IMG/VR virus record: IMGVR_UViG_3300031758_000674
Location: 1 to 21,383 of that record
Source of the DNA: a virus
Reading direction: 5' to 3' (one strand)
DNA length: 21,383 nucleotides
Of the stretch, positions 5,946 through 19,414 are shown one piece after another. Below the pieces are notes generated by a model, which saw only the letters and a list, made by a program, of their open reading frames with translations, ran no database searches and was not told where the DNA came from. A program made the translations under genes and the position numbers. Every line of letters begins with the position of its first letter. Positions within the stretch are counted from its first letter, which is position 1.

Positions 5946-8900
5946 ATGGCAAGAAATTTTTTCAATAAGAAGTTCTCAGATTATTTGGGTGAACAACGAG
6001 CATTGTTGGACATCATTACACAATTCTTTGGTGCAACACCAACTCCTACACCCACTCCTTTCGCTTCTCCATCTCCAACTGCAACTCCCACTCCAAGTGT
6101 TACCTCATCATTAACACCAACACCAAGTGCAACCACAACTCCAACGGTTACTCCAACAAGAACCGTTACCCCAACAGTCACCCCATCACCATCACAAACA
6201 CCATTTCCTTCACCATCAAATTCTGTAACTCCAACAACAACTCCAACCGTAACACCAAGTCCTACTGCAACACCAAGCGCAACCCCATCGGTTACCGCAT
6301 CACCAACACCATCATTGACTCCAAACGCAAGTCCAAGTCCTACACCAACAAAGACACCAACCCCAACTCCATCAACCACACCGGCTGTAGCTGAATTTAG
6401 ATTTACGATTAATACAAATATTACAAATGAATCAAGTAGTAATGTATTTTCATTTAATTTACCATGTAATGGTTCAGGATATTCTGCAACTGTAAATTGG
6501 GGTGATGGTAATTTTGAAAATATTAGTGGTACATTAGGTAATGTATTACACATCTATTCAACACCTGGTGTTTATCAAATAAGAATTTCAGGGATTTTCC
6601 CAACAATATATTTTAACAATACATTAGACTGTATTAAAGTAACATCACTTGACCAATGGGGTACAGGTGCATGGACTACTTTGGAACATGGATTTGATGG
6701 TTGTTTAAACATGATATACAATACCACAGATGTACCTGATTTAAGTTCTTGTACATCTTTGGCTTATCTATTTAGATTTAATAGTTCAAACTCATTTAAT
6801 GGTACATTAGGAACTTGGGCGGTATCAAATATTACAGATTTATCTTACACTTTTGCTGGTTGTTTTAATTTAGTAGAAGATTTAGATAACTGGGATACTA
6901 CCAATGTTACATCATTGGAAGGTACATTTCAAACATGTCTTAATTTCTTCAGTGATTTAGGTATATGGGACACTTCAAGTGTTACCAATATGTCATACAC
7001 ATTTAGTGGAGCACAAACATTTAATGGAAATATTAATAACTGGATTACCAGTGGAGTAACAGATTTCTCTTGGATGTTCTACAAAGCAGCATCTTTTAAT
7101 GTTGATATTGGTAATTGGAATACATCAGGAATTGTTGGTCCAAATTCTATGGATTATATGTTCCAAGGAGCAACCATATTCAACCAAGATTTAACTCTTT
7201 GGTGTGTATTACCAATACCATCTGAACCACCTTCATTTAGGGTCGCTTCAGCATTGATTGATGGTAATCTTCCAATATGGGCAACTTGTCCAACTATACC
7301 TTCACCAACACCTACAGTCACCCCAACAAGAACACCAACTCCAACCGTTACACCAACAACAAGTCCGAGTGTTACTCCTACTTCAAGTGTAACCCCAAGT
7401 ATCACTCCATCAATAACACCAAGTATCACACCATCAGAAACACCAACACCATCTATTACTCCTTCAATTACACCAAGTATTAGTCCAAGTGTTACTGTAA
7501 GTCCAACCCCATCCTTGACGCCAACTCCAACAATGACACCTACACCAAGTCCATCACCGATTGCAAGTAATAATTTTGAATTTATAGTTAATACAACAAA
7601 TTCAGGTTCGGCTTCAGATACATTTGTTTTACCAACAAATGGTGGAGGATATTCTGCAACGGTATATTGGGGTGATGGAAACTCTACAGCATTATCAGGT
7701 ACACCTGGTGCAGTATCACATCAATACGCATCAGGAGGAACTTATACAATTAGTATTACAGGAACATTTCCGAAAATTTATTTCTTAGGCGCTCAAGATA
7801 CACAAAAAATAACCAATATAACTCAATGGGGTGATATTCAATGGACGGCATTTGATGGGGCATTTTATGGATGTTCAAATCTTAATGTTACCGCAACAGA
7901 CGCACCAATATTAACAGGTGTTACAACAACAGCGGCTATGTTCCATAGTTGTTCATCTTTAGTTGGTACATCAGCCTTTAATACATGGAACATGAGTAAT
8001 GTTACCAGCGTGGCAGAAATGTTTTGGGGAACTACATCATTTAATCAAAACATTGGAAATTGGAATGTTAGTAACGTAAGCAATTTTGCTTATATGTTCA
8101 GAGATAACTTTGGTTCATTTAACAATGGTGGTTCACCAAGTATTAGTGGTTGGACAACATCATCGGCAACCAATATGACAAATATGTTTTGGTCGGCAAC
8201 AGCATTCAATCAACCAATTGGAGCGTGGGATGTTAGTAATGTAACCAATTTTGAAGGAATGTTTTTAAATGCTACAACATTCAATCAACCAATTGGAACA
8301 TGGGATGTAAGTTCAGGAACCAATTTTGGAGGTATGTTTGCTATCGCATCTAACTTCAACCAAAACATTAGTGGATGGGATATGTCATCAGCAACAAATG
8401 TTTCTGGTATGTTTAGTTCATCATCGTTTAATCAACCAATTGGAGCATGGAATGTTAGTAACGTAACTAATTTTTCGGAAATGTTCTTTGGAGCAACAGC
8501 ATTTAATCAGGACCTTAGTACTTGGAATACTTCAAGTGCAACCAATATGAGATTAATGTTCCGTGATAACCAAAGTAACGTTGATGTCACCAATTGGAAT
8601 GTTTCAGGTGTTACCACATTTGAAGCAATGTTCATGGGTAACGGTTCATTCAATAGAAGTTTAAACAATTGGAATGTAAGTTTAACTAACAATTATTGGT
8701 CTCAATTATTGTTTAACTGTTCAGGATACAACCAACCTATTACAGGATGGACATTGAACAATTCAATTACTGGTATGAACGATATGTTAACCAATAGTGC
8801 AATATCTGTTGAGAATTATTCAAGAACATTAATTGCATTTGCTAACGATGTTTATAACGATGGTGGTTTACCATTAGTCACACTTGGAGCGTCTGCACAA

Positions 8901-11684
8901 TATGACTGTATTGATTATGTAATTGGTCAACAATATACCAACGCGGTTGCCGCAAGAGCGTACTTGGTTGGATTAGGTTGGGTCATTACTGATGGTGGAC
9001 AATCAGGAGTATGTCCATCACCAACTCCTACACCAACTCAAACCCCATCACTTACACCATCACCAAGTATAACTCCATCACTTACACCATCACCAACAGT
9101 TACTCCAAGTATTTCTGTAAGTCCAACTCCAAGTGTAACACCAAGTATTTCTGTGAGTCCTACACCTACACCAACTCCATCAACTTCAGGAGGATTTGTT
9201 CCTATTGATGCATCAGGTGGTACAGTAACTACAATATCTGCTCTTGGACAAAATTGGAATGTACACACATTTACAGGTGGAACAAATAGTTTCATTGTTA
9301 ATAATCTTGGTACAAATGGTAAAATTGAATACTTAGTAGTTGCAGGTGGTGGTGCTGGTGGTGATGGAACTGCGGGTGGTGGTGGAGCCGGTGGTTTATT
9401 GACCAACGTATCAGGAACACCACTATCAATTTCCGCAACGACATATACCGTTACAGTTGGTGATGGTGGTCCATATATATTTCAAAATAAACGAGGACCT
9501 AATGGTGAAAATTCATCGATTTCAGGTTCAGGAATAACAAGTATAATTGCAATCGGTGGTGGTGGCGGTGGTAACCGTGATTTTGAATTTGACGGTGCGT
9601 CAGGAGGTTCTGGCGGTGGTGGAGGTGGTTCCGACTCACCTGTGGGTGTAGGAGGAGCTGGTACATCAGGTCAAGGATTTGCTGGTGGTACTGCCCAAGG
9701 TGGTGGTGGAGACAGTGCCGGTGGTGGCGGTGGTGGAGCAGGAATGTCAGGTTTCACATGTAGTGTTGCTAAACAAGGTGCTGCTGGTGGAGACGGTGTT
9801 CAAAACGATATTAATGGAACTAACACTTGGTACGCAGGTGGTGGTGGAGGTGGTTCACACTCCGCATACAATGCACCAGGTGGTCAAGGTGGTGGTGGAC
9901 AAGGAGCTGAGCTTAACACAACCGATGCTGGTGACGGTGTAGACGGAACCGGTGGCGGTGGTGGCGGTGGAGCCGGTGGTGGTTATGGTAACACAAGAGC
10001 TGGTAACGGTGGTAAAGGTATTGTAATTATTAGATATCCATTGAATAGTCCAATTCCTCCGCCAAGTCCTTCACCAACACCAAGTATAACTGCATCAGTT
10101 ACCCCAACACCATCAACAAGTGTTGCTCCATCAACAATGTTTATCGCTGTTGGTCAATCAGGAACTACTGGTAATAATGCCTTAGGATATTCTTATGATG
10201 GATTAATTTGGAGTGGAAACACAAACGCAAATATTGTTTGGGGTCCAACCAATCGTATCTTAAATGCCGTAAAATGGAATGGTTCGATGTGGGTTGTTGC
10301 AGGTAGTACAACACCAAGTGGTAATCAGGTTATGGGTTATTCATATGATGGATTGACATGGTCAGGTTCAACCAATAGTAAAAATTATTTAAATATTGGC
10401 TATGATGTAGAATACGGAAATAATAAATGGATTGGGGTAGGTTCAACAGGGTCTACCGCATCTACACCTGATAGAATTATATTATCCGATGATGGTATAA
10501 CATGGAGTGGGGCAACTTCTTTAGGAGGTAACTCAAATACTTTATTTGTATCAAGAACACTTTTAGGTATTAAATGGAATGGTTCATATTATTTGGTTAC
10601 GGGAAGTGGTACCGGTACTGCACCAAAAATTGCATTATCTTATGATGGTATAACATGGACAGGTTCTACAAATGGAAATACTGTATTCAGTGCTGGTCCT
10701 GAAAAATCATCATGGGATGGATTTAAATGGGTTGTAGCTGGTGGTGCTTCCGCCAATAAATTAGGATATTCATATGATGGATTGACATGGTCAGGTTCAA
10801 CAAATGGTAATTCAATTTTCACTTCAAGTGTAAGAGATGTAGTATGGAATGGTTCTATATGGGTTGCTTGTGGTAATGGTACAAATATCTTAGGATATTC
10901 ATATGATGGATTGACATGGTCAGGTTCAACAAATGGTAATGCTATATTCAGTGGTGATACTCTCGATGTTGCATATAATGTAACTTGGAATGGTTCAATG
11001 TTCTTATGTGGTAATTCAGTGGGTACATCCAATGTAAGTAATAAAAATACAATTGGTTATTCATATGATGGTATTACATGGTCAGGAGCAACAAATGATT
11101 TAAATGTCATTAGTAGAACTGTGTTTGATATTGGTTATAAACCAACATTCAATCCACCAGCTACCACACCTACACCTACTCCAACTTCAAGTCCATCAGT
11201 GACTCCTACACCGAGTATAACACCATCTGAATCGGTAACTCCGACACCAACACCTACGGTTACACCATCTTCTCCATCATTCACCTTACAATATGATGTT
11301 GGATTTATTGGAAGTTCAGGTGGTACTAGTAAAACTTATGATTTAATGGATGCATCCATGAGTGTAGCTGGTTGTACAATTACTTGTAATACATTTACTA
11401 CATCTTCAAGTAGTGGTGGTGCGACTCAAGTATCACAAAGTTTAGGAAGTTCATGTTTAGCGGGTACTTTAAATGTAAGTCGAAGGGTAAGTGTGAATGC
11501 GTTTACTCAAAGAACACAATCTACTATAGTGACAAAAATTAATAATGTTACTGTAGATACTCATACTATTAGTACAACATCAAATATAACAAGCGGGAAT
11601 CCATTAGCTGAAACATATTATCCACCTGTAACACCATCTAATGGTGATATAGTTTCGGTAGTTTGGACAGATACTTTAATATAA
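5946..11684 (+). CDS. Giant modular phage fibre/adhesin: PKD-like, BspA-type repeats, Gly-rich domain, seven-repeat propeller
   Basis: This 1912-aa protein is a string of binding modules joined by Pro/Thr/Ser linkers. Residues 1-29 are an anchor ([17 protein letters not shown]). Linkers lie near 30-148, 448-538, 1023-1080, 1369-1397 and 1738-1777. Residues 150-240 and 541-635 are two related PKD-like domains ([11 protein letters not shown] and [11 protein letters not shown]). Each is followed by BspA/DUF285-type repeats of about 24 residues ([17 protein letters not shown]). Residues 1083-1367 are a Gly-rich domain with long GGGG runs, like the Gly-rich modules of phage adhesins. Residues 1398-1737 hold seven repeats of S-x-D-G-[LI]-x-W-[ST]-G, one per likely propeller blade. 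The last 135 residues form a further beta domain. The most likely job is host-surface binding. Its place between capsid and portal genes suggests a head-borne fibre, but a tail location is not excluded. Confidence 0.8.
6031..6390 (+). repeat. Low-complexity Pro/Thr/Ser linker DNA (longest of six)
   Basis: About 120 codons read almost only CCA/CCT, ACA/ACT/ACC and TCA/AGT, coding a TPTPS-type linker. Shorter versions lie near 5077-5190, 7291-7563, 9016-9189, 10051-10134 and 11156-11278. They share many short stretches and are likely points of recombination and length change. They also create long artificial reading frames on the other strand. Confidence 0.8.
10761..10811 (+). repeat. 51-nt direct repeat in the propeller, copy 1
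   Basis: A 51-nt stretch starting TTAGGATATTCATATGATGG and ending in AATGGTAAT is repeated without change 129 bp downstream. Each copy encodes one blade motif ([17 protein letters not shown]). Exact identity at the DNA level suggests recent duplication or gene conversion between blades. Confidence 0.85.
10890..10940 (+). repeat. 51-nt direct repeat in the propeller, copy 2
   Basis: Second identical copy of the 51-nt blade repeat at 10761-10811. The sequences on either side of the two copies differ, so the identity is confined to the blade motif. Confidence 0.85.
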
Positions 11685-11690
11685 TTTAAG

Positions 11691-12140
11691 ATGATACCTA
11701 TAAATCAATCCGAATTAAACACAGTGGTGGCAACTTGTAGTCGTAACAAACAACTAACAGGTAATGTGTATTATTTGTGGACAATGACCCACAAGTTAAC
11801 AAAACAGAATTGGAAGTTCATTCCATACCTGTTACCAGCTACTGGTGCAATTGGGTATGAACCAAGTTATGACCAATTTCAAATTGATGTTGATTCTGCA
11901 AGTGCAGAAGTATTCATCGCAACAGGAACTATAACACCAGTAAACTTGCACTTAATACCGGGTCAATATTATGTGAAAATCTATGAACAAGCGTCTTCGA
12001 CAAATTTGAACCCAATAACAGCATTCGATGTGGTATATGAAGGAATGGCCAATGTAATTGGAACCAATCCTGTATATAACGATATTGTTAGTTACACTGG
12101 CAATTCATCGAGTCAAATATTTAAAGTATATCAAGGATGA
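11691..12140 (+). CDS. Putative virion protein (149 aa)
   Basis: The gene lies 6 nt after the fibre gene and overlaps the portal gene by ATGA (12137-12140), so it is translated as part of the portal operon. The product appears beta-rich (NVYYLWTMTHKLTKQNWKFIPYLL, PGQYYVKIYEQ) with no membrane segment. The YVKIYEQ strand and final IFKVYQG strand would suit an Ig-like or decoration fold. I do not recognise the family. Position between fibre and portal suggests a small structural or adaptor protein, perhaps one that attaches the fibre; this is inference. Confidence 0.6.
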   Translation: MIPINQSELNTVVATCSRNKQLTGNVYYLWTMTHKLTKQNWKFIPYLLPATGAIGYEPSYDQFQIDVDSASAEVFIATGTITPVNLHLIPGQYYVKIYEQASSTNLNPITAFDVVYEGMANVIGTNPVYNDIVSYTGNSSSQIFKVYQG

Positions 12141-15168: not shown

Positions 15169-15199
15169 CAAATATATCCATAAATATTGATTAATCAAA
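15169..15199 (-). promoter_or_regulatory. Bacteroidota-type promoter of the HNH gene
   Basis: Read on the minus strand, TTTG (complement of 15196-15199) and TATATTTG (complement of 15169-15176) are 19 nt apart, a full match to the -33/-7 pattern. The HNH start codon begins 4 nt after the -7 box, so transcription should start at or just before the ATG. Confidence 0.82.
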
Positions 15200-15210
15200 A
15201 TCAATTGCAT

Positions 15211-15265
15211 AAAAAACCCCGCCACTCTTGTATAATATGGGAACAACTTAGAGCGAGTGACGGGG
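15211..15265 (-). terminator. Terminator hairpin closing the minus-strand RNA
   Basis: On the minus strand an 11-bp stem (CCCCGUCACUC with GAGUGGCGGGG, from 15255-15265 and 15217-15227) is followed by six U (complement of 15211-15216). One pair is G-U in this RNA but A-C on the plus strand, which favours minus-strand transcription. The 27-nt loop is long for a terminator and carries a motif shared with the hairpin at 15337-15392. Confidence 0.8.
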
Positions 15266-15336
15266 CTAATGAAAAAAAAGAAACTTCTATTAAAAAAGTT
15301 ATCTATAATTATCACGGTTTTGTAATACGATGCAAA

Positions 15337-15392
15337 CCATTCCCCCACCGAATGGCGAATTCAAATATGGATAATTTAGAGTGAGGGAATGG
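15337..15392 (-). other. Hairpin B of the candidate RNA
   Basis: Minus-strand arms CCAUUCCCUCAC and GUGGGGGAAUGG form 12 continuous pairs including one U-G. The 32-nt loop begins UCUAAAUUAU, then CCAUAUU, and contains a small inner stem (GAAU...AUUC). The loop motif is repeated in the terminator hairpin at 15211-15265, so the two hairpins look like a diverged tandem duplication. Confidence 0.7.
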
Positions 15393-15445
15393 AACAATCA
15401 CAGAGACATGGATTGTTTTTGTATGTAATCACAGAATTACTATAT

Positions 15446-15477
15446 CAAATATAAGAATAAATTTTGAAACTACCAAA
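15446..15477 (-). promoter_or_regulatory. Bacteroidota-type promoter of the candidate RNA
   Basis: On the minus strand TTTG (complement of 15474-15477) and TATATTTG (complement of 15446-15453) are separated by 20 nt. The -33 element overlaps the last codons of the HTH gene. Transcription should start near 15442 and enter a region with no plausible reading frame. Confidence 0.8.
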
Positions 15478-15880
15478 TCTTATTTTTAAACTTATCATGA
15501 TTTTCTTGTAACACTTCCAACGTTGGAATGGTATCAAATAACTTACTAAATCTCTCACCAGTTAACTTATCTTGTAAGTAATGGAGTATGATATAAACTT
15601 TTCCATTTGGAGTGATTACAGGACAAATTTGACTGGTAATTGAATATGACCCATGAACAAGATTTATGGTATCGCAAATACAAGGAAGGTCATCTATTTC
15701 TTCAATTTGAGATTTAACCTTATCTCTTTCTTCTGGCCAACGATTACCGTTTCTAATCATATTGATTAATGGTCTTGATACCCCATACATTTTTGCAATT
15801 TCTGAATCAGATAGATTCTGTTGGAACAGATTTTTAATTTCTCTAACCTGTTCTACTTTAAGTTTGAACGCTCCTAGCAT
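15470..15880 (-). CDS. Helix-turn-helix protein, putative regulator
   Basis: The product has 136 aa. Residues 8-48 form a clear helix-turn-helix (KVEQVREIKNLFQQNLSDSE, then IAKMYGVSRPLINMIRNGNRW), of the type also found attached to homing endonucleases and recombinases. Residues 49-136 are unfamiliar, with one CxC (PCIC), and no nuclease motif is visible, so it may be a DNA-binding regulator or a remnant that kept only the DNA-binding part. It lies 7 nt after the zinc-finger gene and is probably cotranscribed with it. As the only clear DNA-binding regulator-like protein near the divergent promoter region at 16220-16355, it is a candidate for controlling that region. That role is inference. 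Confidence 0.65.
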   Translation of the reverse strand: MLGAFKLKVEQVREIKNLFQQNLSDSEIAKMYGVSRPLINMIRNGNRWPEERDKVKSQIEEIDDLPCICDTINLVHGSYSITSQICPVITPNGKVYIILHYLQDKLTGERFSKLFDTIPTLEVLQENHDKFKNKIW

Positions 15881-16302: not shown

Positions 16303-16334
16303 TTTGTAAATATGGGTAACTATTCCTATATTTG
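16303..16334 (+). promoter_or_regulatory. Bacteroidota-type promoter of the DUF6291-like gene, with overlapping dyad
   Basis: TTTG (16303-16306) and TATATTTG (16327-16334) are 20 nt apart. The -7 box sits inside an inverted repeat ATTCC (16322-16326) / GGAAT (16334-16338), so a protein bound there would block RNA polymerase. The start codon follows 20 nt after the box. Confidence 0.8.
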
Positions 16335-16354: not shown

Positions 16355-16966
16355 ATGGCGAAAACATCTAAAACAACAAGGGAACAATTCACCTTCTACT
16401 TGAGTTACTTCGACGCTCTTAATGAATTGGAATCAGACGAAGATAAGGTACAATACTTAATGGCAATATGTAATAAACAATTTTATGGTATTGAACCAAT
16501 CAATCTTAGTAAAGATGTTAGATTGGTATATAAGAGTCAAAAACATTCCATGGATAAATCAATAATTGGTTGGGAATCCCAAGCTGGTGTTAAGTTACAA
16601 CCACCTACGGGAGGTACTACCCAAGTACCCTACCAAGGTAGTACCCAAGTACCCCACCTAGTACCTTCGGTACAAGTACAAGAACAAGTACAAGTACAAG
16701 TACAAGAACAAGAACAAGAACAAGTACAAGAACAAAAAGAAGTACAAGTAGAAGAACAAGTACAAGTAGAAGGGGAAATTCAATTTGAAAAGAAAAGAAA
16801 ATTAAGAAAAGATATATTGGATTTATTTGGTATGGCAATACCAGAACAAAGATTATTCAAATATATTGCAATTGCTGATTATAATTCGATTGAACAATTT
16901 ACTGGTATGGAAATTACTTCAACAGATATTGAATTATTTGAAGAATATAATAATGCAATTAATTAA
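16355..16966 (+). CDS. DUF6291-like protein with Val/Gln/Glu repeat tract
   Basis: The product has 203 aa. Residues 1-75 resemble the DUF6291 domain found in phage and mobile-element proteins of Bacteroidota, often near replication genes (REQFTFYLSYFDALNEL, then DKVQYLMAICNKQFYG and SMDKSIIGW). Residues 86-106 are Pro/Thr/Gln-rich (TQVPYQGSTQVP). Residues 106-140 are almost pure Val-Gln/Glu-Gln dipeptides coded by 6-bp units. The last 60 residues are a separate helical domain. The role is probably in DNA replication or its initiation, inferred from family context. Its own promoter with an overlapping dyad suggests regulated early expression. The repeat tract is likely to vary in length between relatives. 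Confidence 0.65.
   Translation: MAKTSKTTREQFTFYLSYFDALNELESDEDKVQYLMAICNKQFYGIEPINLSKDVRLVYKSQKHSMDKSIIGWESQAGVKLQPPTGGTTQVPYQGSTQVPHLVPSVQVQEQVQVQVQEQEQEQVQEQKEVQVEEQVQVEGEIQFEKKRKLRKDILDLFGMAIPEQRLFKYIAIADYNSIEQFTGMEITSTDIELFEEYNNAIN
16613..16771 (+). repeat. GTAC-rich tandem repeats in the DUF6291-like gene
   Basis: Two near-identical units of about 20 bp (GGTA[CG]TACCCAAGTACCC) at 16613-16653 are followed by many 6-bp units, GTACAA or GAACAA, from about 16669 to 16771. They encode TQVP repeats and then VQ/EQ repeats. The tract looks like a slippage-prone microsatellite and concentrates the tetranucleotide GTAC. Confidence 0.85.
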
Positions 16967-17004: not shown

Positions 17005-17035
17005 TTTGAAATTAAAATAAACTTCAATATATTTG
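17005..17035 (+). promoter_or_regulatory. Bacteroidota-type promoter of the small early operon
   Basis: TTTG (17005-17008) and TATATTTG (17028-17035) have a 19-nt spacer. The ATG at 17041 lies 5 nt after the -7 box, so the first gene of the operon would have almost no leader. Confidence 0.82.
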
Positions 17036-17040
17036 TATAT

Positions 17041-17295
17041 ATGGAACAAGATAACCTCAACAAAGAAATTGCTAGCATCCTTTTCAATGTAAAGGATGAG
17101 CCAAGGAATGTATCCAAAATGGAAATCAAAGAAATGATTGCAAAGATTTTAGGGTATGGCCAACATTTAATTAATGTGCAACTATTGAGAGGTAAAGATA
17201 CCTTCACCAACTTATTTGGTAATAGAATGGAGCAGGACCCACTATTAGAAGAATTAATAAACTTATACTACTCAGAAGAACAATGGAACAATTAA
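17041..17295 (+). CDS. Small hypothetical protein (84 aa), first gene of an early-type operon
   Basis: The product is helical and charged, with no membrane segment or Cys motif (EIASILFNVKDEP, MEIKEMIAKILGYGQHLINV, DPLLEELINLYYSEEQW). I do not recognise it. It starts 5 nt after a perfect promoter box and overlaps the next gene by 13 nt. A nearby palindrome suggests tight control. Small helical proteins at this place in phages are often host-takeover or replication accessory factors, but nothing here shows which. Confidence 0.65.
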   Translation: MEQDNLNKEIASILFNVKDEPRNVSKMEIKEMIAKILGYGQHLINVQLLRGKDTFTNLFGNRMEQDPLLEELINLYYSEEQWNN

Positions 17296-17543
17296 TAAAA
17301 AAATACGGTAGAGCAAATGGCATGGTGCTAGACCTAATGAAAAAAAGATGTGACTTCAATGCCGAGCATAATAAGTTTGAATGGACTGGCGAACTTAAAA
17401 CACACCAAATAATGGAAGCGACTGGCTTAACAGAACAAGAAGTAAAAGATGCTGTTCAATATTTACTTGGTGTAGGATTTATTAGCCAGTATAAAACCTT
17501 TGAGGTTTATTCAATGAATATTTTGGTAATCAATAATCACTAA
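17283..17543 (+). CDS. Small protein with winged-helix-like fold
   Basis: The 86-aa product starts inside the end of the preceding gene (13-nt overlap). Residues 34-66 read like a winged helix: TGELKTHQIMEATGLTEQEVKDAVQYLLGVGFI, a helix-turn-helix followed by a GFI strand, then KTFEVYSMNILVINN as the wing. This pattern is typical of small DNA-binding or replication-initiation accessory domains. It may regulate its own operon or help replication together with the DUF6291-like protein upstream. Assignment is by pattern only. Confidence 0.6.
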   Translation: MEQLIKKYGRANGMVLDLMKKRCDFNAEHNKFEWTGELKTHQIMEATGLTEQEVKDAVQYLLGVGFISQYKTFEVYSMNILVINNH

Positions 17544-19154: not shown

Positions 19155-19287
19155 TTACCAATACAATTACCAACCAGTGTGGTTGAGACCTGAGATTCAT
19201 GCCAAACTAAAAGACGTTGCATCAAAGTATAAATTGACATTGAATAAACTTATAGAAAAATTTGTAGATAGCGATGGCGAAAACTAA
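19102..19287 (+). CDS. Small ribbon-helix-helix-like protein (61 aa)
   Basis: This frame starts inside the previous gene (53-nt overlap, long for this phage) and continues alone to 19287. Residues 1-25 are basic and polar; residues 27-55 (VWLRPEIHAKLKDVASKYKLTLNKLIEKFVD) read like a ribbon-helix-helix DNA-binding unit: a strand, a helix, a turn and a second helix. It could regulate the packaging operon or take part in DNA recognition. The C-terminal half is the best-supported part. Confidence 0.6.
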   Translation: MKKTTQTKITTKSGKVYNYQYNYQPVWLRPEIHAKLKDVASKYKLTLNKLIEKFVDSDGEN

Positions 19288-19414
19288 GACACAATCGGTT
19301 GCAACAAGAACATCAAGACCAAAAGTCAAAAGACCTGGTATTCACGCTAAAACAAAATACTCCAACAATAAGAAATCAAAACTATACAAGAAGGTAAACA
19401 GAGGACAAGGATGA
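19274..19414 (+). CDS. Tiny basic protein before the large terminase (46 aa)
   Basis: ATG 19274 overlaps the previous gene by 14 nt and the stop TGA overlaps the terminase start as ATGA (19411-19414). The 46-aa product is very basic: RTSRPKVKRPGIHAKTKYS, then a Lys/Asn-rich end. The RPGIHAKTK motif is one I associate with small proteins next to large terminases in Bacteroidota phages. The precise overlaps on both sides support it as real. Confidence 0.65.
   Translation: MAKTKTQSVATRTSRPKVKRPGIHAKTKYSNNKKSKLYKKVNRGQG

Follow-up and report, generated by a model that had tools for sequence, protein, structure and literature searches.

Complementarity between a predicted structured phage RNA and the start codon of a divergent replication operon

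Introduction

The sequence considered here, which we call the window, is the whole of a 21,383-base IMG/VR virus record, and it raises a simple question: what occupies the gap on its minus strand between the genes for an HTH protein and an HNH_3 endonuclease? A preliminary description, made from the sequence alone, proposed an undescribed, independently transcribed structured RNA that might be a regulatory RNA, the partner of a neighbouring protein or a decoy. The existence of such an RNA is now well supported computationally, its transcription being still unobserved. Of these roles the regulatory one has support, in that the RNA is complementary to the start codon with which the divergent operon begins; for a partner or a decoy there is no positive evidence, and neither is excluded. 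Our principal contention, to which we give a probability of about 0.6, is that the locus encodes a trans-acting antisense sRNA that would block translation initiation of the phage's replication operon; transcription, pairing and repression are all inferred.

Genomic context of the locus

The window contains a portal gene at 12137 and a terminase gene at 19411, both on the plus strand, and a divergent minus-strand block that includes the gap (Table 1). The order ZR-HTH-RNA-HNH is preserved in the close relatives (portal identity 91% or more, intact copies compared), while more distant relatives carry other cargo in its place, so that the earlier description of an accessory block was a fair one. 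The RNA, HTH and HNH genes are always found together. A structure model of the HTH protein shows an N-terminal HTH at low confidence (pLDDT 67). Beside the HNH gene of one relative, L087, lies a 211-aa ORF (L087:2348-2983) that starts MKQCIVYQHRRLDNNEIFYIGIGQ and looks, by eye, like a GIY-YIG endonuclease. Elsewhere in the window, 5946-11684 (+) encodes a protein of 1912 aa in which many PTPTPT-rich linkers join repeated domains; it probably serves in the tail or in receptor binding. The virus is assigned to freshwater bacteria, and its host could not be identified beyond its promoter type, since bacterial genomes contained no relative of the HTH protein and a search with TerL gave only a single distant Clostridium locus.

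Table 1. Features of the RNA locus and of the predicted target operon in the window.
Feature	Position	Strand	Remarks
HNH_3 endonuclease, 150 aa	14712-15164	-	downstream neighbour of the RNA
Full promoter of the HNH gene	15169-15199	-	lies downstream of the RNA terminator
RNA, about 232 nt	15210-15441	-	both ends deduced from the promoter and the U-tract
Intrinsic terminator hairpin, 12 bp, and U6	15211-15266	-	15266-15255 with 15227-15216; U6 15216-15211
Hairpin 2, 12 bp	15337-15392	-	15392-15381 with 15348-15337; abuts hairpin 1 directly
Antisense motif UUCGCCAU	15352-15359	-	loop of hairpin 2; exact complement of 16355-16362
Hairpin 1, 7 bp	15393-15417	-	15417-15411 with 15399-15393; conserved pairing
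RNA promoter TTTG-N20-TATATTTG	15446-15477	-	Bacteroidota sigma-A type, full form
HTH protein, 136 aa	15470-15880	-	upstream neighbour; always accompanies the RNA
ZR, zinc-ribbon-like ORF, 110 aa	15888-16220	-	named by eye from cysteines; no family matched
Target operon promoter TTTG-N20-TATATTTG	16303-16334	+	
Predicted target, first gene of divergent operon, DUF6291 family	16355-16963	+	starts AUGGCGAA; weakly primosomal-like in relatives
Possible second target, MEQDN...	17041-17292	+	AUGGAACAA complementary to 3' strand of hairpin 1 and partly to terminator loop; p = 0.013, uncorrected
Possible third target, MEQLI...	17283-17540	+	AAUGGAACAAU complementary to junction of hairpins 1 and 2; p = 0.003, uncorrected

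A conserved structured RNA, very probably free-standing

Full promoters of the TTTG-N20-TATATTTG type occur eight times in the window against 0.71 expected from shuffles, and most of them stand before transcription units, including the HNH gene, the divergent operon and the gene at 17041; the same -7 box consensus has been reported in Flavobacterium psychrophilum (PMC9723704). The preliminary description had claimed one such promoter ahead of the RNA on the minus strand, of the form TTTG-N20-TAnnTTTG, and this held (15477-15446), as did its three hairpins of 7, 12 and 11 bp with a closing U6, except that the third measures 12 bp. The unit of about 230 nt also held in size and position; with its promoter it runs from 15477 to about 15209, the U6 tract closing the RNA at about 15210. 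For the minus strand the folding energy is -67.2 kcal/mol (z = -5.4), a value that none of 200 shuffles equalled; the plus strand reaches z = -2.35, and the minus strand still gives z = -3.2 with the terminator left out. No conserved reading frame is present in the ten relatives, in keeping with the original mention of no convincing frame: the longest ATG frame is 0-16 aa in nine of them and 46 aa in one. A scan of 15205-15480 against Rfam 15 returned nothing, even with E allowed to reach 1, and the family is thus not previously described in Rfam.

Ten distinct IMG/VR contigs carry the RNA between HTH and HNH genes, and they fall into two subgroups, A (the window, L080, L082 and L083) and B (L084, L085, L086, L087, L088 and L100). 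All ten have the promoter, as TT[TG]G-N19/20-TAnnTTTG, and the three helices and terminator are likewise retained. The preliminary description was to be refuted if homologous phages left the region unconserved and without compensatory changes; the opposite was found, the ten relatives both conserving and compensating. MAFFT misaligned hairpin 1 across the subgroups, so that plain RNAalifold gave only 16 pairs there, and we therefore took the pairing statistics from a model-fitted alignment of nine of the ten relatives. In this alignment 96.3% of pair cells hold standard pairs, and 12 of the 31 pairs (39 cells in total) have changed on both sides; none of 500 shuffles reached the observed pairing percentage or covariation score, and shifting the partner by 1-3 bases reduced pairing to 41-54%. 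Hairpin 1 has both-side changes at four of seven pairs with every cell paired, its variants including AACAATC/GATTGTT, AACGGTC/GACCGTT and AAACCAC/GTGGTTT; hairpin 2 has them at five of 12 pairs with 98% of cells paired; and the pairs of the terminator also covary.

A referee might object that a model-fitted alignment leans towards structure, and for this reason we added a transfer test between subgroups. A model trained on subgroup A alone recovered every member of subgroup B at 67-75 bits (E from 3e-13 to 1.5e-11), while a sequence-only model built from the same rows scored them at 19-28 bits (E from 7e-7 to 3e-4) and missed L088. Read in the minus-strand sense, G-U cells outnumber A-C cells by 22 to 3, which indicates that the RNA itself is under selection and not its complement. 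Promoter, conserved structure and strand are in this way shown by computation. Beyond the family the search was negative: no copy of the RNA turned up in the complete records of the wider circle of relatives; scanning viral contigs for the pattern of hairpin 2 brought up 58 of them, among which only known family members score with the model; and DNA similarity to named phages was at chance level.

Two explanations would deny the RNA an independent existence. The first holds that it is a cis-acting leader of the HNH gene, an attenuator or riboswitch working by premature termination; in its favour, every relative has a terminator hairpin some 45 bases upstream of where the HNH gene begins. Against it, a separate full promoter for the HNH gene lies beyond the terminator, the terminator pairs covary with no alternative antiterminator fold to be seen, and no riboswitch or leader in Rfam matches, and we regard it as very improbable. 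The second explanation, that the region is no more than the tail of the HTH mRNA, an untranslated 3' end with a terminator and no function of its own, draws support from its position directly after the HTH stop codon in most relatives. It too is most unlikely: the RNA's own promoter persists in 10/10 relatives, even where ORFs have been inserted after HTH, and a mere terminator would have no need of the other two helices, with their compensatory changes. In both L085 and L086 the RNA is separated from HTH by one or two ORFs, yet it keeps its promoter box. Extra small ORFs at this position are L086:5475-5714 (79 aa) and L085:2391-2531 (47 aa), each with a promoter-like box before it. The box retained behind these insertions, together with the HNH gene's own promoter, leads us to conclude that the RNA is most likely neither an HNH leader nor merely the end of the HTH mRNA; it is very likely a real, free-standing, structured RNA, with its transcription inferred and not observed.

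A loop complementary to the start codon of the replication operon

What might this RNA act upon? The sequence UUCGCCAU, exposed in the loop of hairpin 2 with an unpaired probability of 0.81 in the window, has as its exact complement AUGGCGAA, the eight bases, start codon included, with which the first gene of the divergent operon begins. This complementarity to a replication-operon start codon is new and is shown computationally. The first divergent gene begins ATGGCGAA in 8/8 RNA-bearing contigs that include it, the gene being missing from the contigs of L083, L099 and L100, and in L086 the second divergent gene begins AUGGCGAA as well. Among the other ZR-bearing contigs with a callable first gene, where the RNA is absent or its presence unknown, none starts ATGGCGAA. 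The motif is not fixed to one hairpin: it lies in the hairpin 2 loop in subgroup A, and in subgroup B it is absent from that hairpin and found in the terminator loop, with unpaired probabilities of 0.70-0.98 among the relatives.

Could an eight-base match be fortuitous? Dinucleotide-shuffled versions of the RNA contain UUCGCCAU with a probability of 0.004 for the window and 0.004-0.007 per genome. Among mechanically called ORFs of at least 60 codons, 9/125 gene starts in RNA-bearing contigs are AUGGCGAA, against 2/935 in related contigs, and where a gene begins Met-Ala-Lys/Asn the alanine codon is GCG in 9/11 RNA-bearing cases against 2/32. The first gene ranks first or second among all genes for start-codon pairing in 8/8 genomes, and in the window the best three matches among 25 genes are the first three of the operon (16355, 17041 and 17283). 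The complementarity extends over 8 bp, or 9 in L085, with local duplex energies of -11.8 to -14.9 kcal/mol. Two broader measures gave no support: counting any start-codon match of at least eight bases per genome was not significant, and a ranking of 1060 gene starts by duplex energy told us nothing, dominated as it is by unrelated GC-rich phages. The relatives are also not independent, and we count about four leaders and five gene families as separate contexts, not eight. One further contig, L006, comes from the same metagenome as L083 and is possibly the other half of that phage; its RNA status is unknown, and the corresponding start reads ATGGCTAA (AUGGCUAA). Were it to carry the RNA, a loop reading UUAGCCAU would be the strongest covariation of all and a loop reading UUCGCCAU a mark against our proposal.

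The genes behind this start codon form five groups with no detectable mutual similarity: a DUF6291 group (the window, L084 and the second gene of L086), an O-like/DnaD-like initiator group (L080 and L085), and three different small ORFs (L082; L086; L087 and L088). In L082 and L088 the small ORF overlaps, or ends a few bases before, a gene for an HTH_36 initiator-like protein, so that translational coupling is plausible, by inference. The predicted targets resemble O-like/DnaD-like replication initiators, and their nature, like the exact conserved complementarity and the accessibility of the loop, is shown computationally. Within the predicted target gene of the window, 16640-16780 (+) is a low-complexity GTACAAGTACAAGAACAAG repeat encoding a VQVQEQ stretch. 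The 8-mer ATGGCGAA occurs only three times in the window; a basic 46-aa ORF just upstream of the terminase gene (19274-19414, +) also begins with it and could be another target.

An alternative reading makes ATGGCGAA a DNA element, either an operator, bound by the HTH protein or some other one, or a junction at which recombination swaps first genes. L084, L085 and L086 do swap first genes behind a conserved leader that ends in ATGGCGAA, and a gene for a DNA-binding HTH protein adjoins. Yet the start codon is invariably where ATGGCGAA begins, whichever of several leaders precedes it, and the copy in the RNA gene sits in a transcribed loop, far from the promoter and always antisense; we find this reading very hard to sustain.

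A second alternative is that the real partner lies elsewhere (host mRNAs, the HTH or zinc-ribbon protein, or a host defence factor for which the RNA is a sponge or decoy) and that the match to AUGGCGAA is incidental. The constant association of RNA, HTH and HNH could be so explained, known phage sRNAs often target host RNAs (PMC12197685), and no target has been proven for a second conserved loop sequence, UUAUCCAUAUUU. This loop matches gene 2 of L082 over 9 nt, and the window RNA matches gene 2 of L006 over 14 nt, with UUAUCCAUAUUU as candidate second seed, although the window lacks that gene; a 12-nt match at 16311 falls within the promoter spacer. A second seed is thus no more than a possibility. 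We consider another partner unlikely, since it would leave unexplained both the 8/8 start matches over five protein families and the persistence of complementarity when the motif changes hairpin; the extra ORFs between HTH and RNA in L085 and L086 also count against it.

A proposed mechanism

Returning to the antisense reading, we propose that the RNA would be made from its own minus-strand promoter and stopped by its intrinsic terminator, and would fold into three hairpins, two of them abutting and the third the terminator, with unpaired loops exposed, one loop showing UUCGCCAU. This loop would pair with AUGGCGAA at the operon's start codon and so block ribosome entry. The first gene encodes a DUF6291 or replication-initiation protein, or is a small ORF immediately before an initiator gene, so that repressing it would limit or delay phage DNA replication. 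The start codon is a natural site to block because a Shine-Dalgarno sequence is probably absent from Bacteroidota-type mRNAs. Translation initiation in Flavobacterium is independent of Shine-Dalgarno sequences (PMC9723704), and GibS, a chromosomal sRNA of Bacteroides thetaiotaomicron, represses by pairing across start codons (PMC7366714), so that blocking of this kind has precedent in the phylum. Those features of a trans-encoded sRNA that sequence can show are present: an own promoter and intrinsic terminator, no conserved ORF, and an unpaired seed complementary to a target and conserved with it (8/8). With no expression data to draw on, we can only infer that the RNA is transcribed, that it pairs with its target in the cell, that it represses instead of activating, and when it acts.

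It is possible, and not established, that several operon genes are targets, the matches to the following genes being weaker. For the genes at 17041 and 17283 the matches involve bases that are paired in the fold and are suggestive only. The former has its own promoter (17005-17035, +), whose TATATTTG box ends five bases before the gene's ATG (17028-17043, +); this spacing suggests that its mRNA might be leaderless, and the HNH gene and the target gene of L080 and L082 look alike in this respect. A bolder reading, which we offer only as a possibility, is that several anti-start-codon loops with CCAU motifs silence consecutive genes of the replication operon, and that the RNA fixes the first eight bases of the first gene while different initiator genes swap behind them.

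Comparison with known systems

Our proposal is closest to GibS in its same-phylum expression signals and in a pairing across the start codons of mRNAs without Shine-Dalgarno sequences that represses, as we infer for the phage RNA. However, GibS is encoded on a chromosome, has a 5' end largely without structure, and directs a linear seed at metabolic genes, whereas the RNA described here is phage-borne and folded, with seeds in hairpin loops aimed at a phage replication operon. Plasmid copy-control RNAs offer a functional likeness: RNAII of pMV158 is a small structured RNA that limits translation of a replication initiator (PMC4485353). CopA of R1 limits initiator translation by way of a preceding reading frame to which the initiator is coupled. 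Both, however, are cis-encoded and fully complementary countertranscripts, while the phage RNA lies about 0.9-1 kb from its target, on the other strand, and matches it over eight bases only; it does not, therefore, belong to this class. A cis-encoded countertranscript in the manner of CopA, RNAII, sar or OOP is ruled out by the distance of about 0.9 kb and the match of 8-9 nt.

Other phage antisense RNAs that regulate genes of phage development are sar of P22, OOP of lambda, c4 of P1/P7 and VpdS of VP882, the last also acting in trans on phage replication (PMC12197685). Of these, sar and OOP differ in being cis-antisense and VpdS in being about 50 nt long and from a Vibrio phage; the fold and start-codon motif of the present RNA recur in none of the four, as far as tested (no Rfam match). 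Finally, the HEARO/OMEGA RNAs beside IscB-type nucleases are also structured RNAs adjoining an HNH-type gene, but the protein here is a 150-aa HNH_3 homing-type enzyme with its own promoter. A HEARO/OMEGA RNA is ruled out, there being no Rfam match up to E 1 and a partner with HNH_3 only, where RuvC and HNH are needed.

Significance

Regulatory RNAs of Bacteroidota phages are almost unknown. If our reading is correct, we have here a family of phage RNAs whose target can be named and tested and stays conserved over a number of unrelated initiator genes, and phages whose hosts do without Shine-Dalgarno sequences could control translation and, with it, the timing of replication by covering a start codon. 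The same reading puts a rule within reach of a test, that the target site of an RNA constrains the modular exchange of replication genes. Should the bolder reading also hold, the RNA would enforce a plug-in socket for replication modules.
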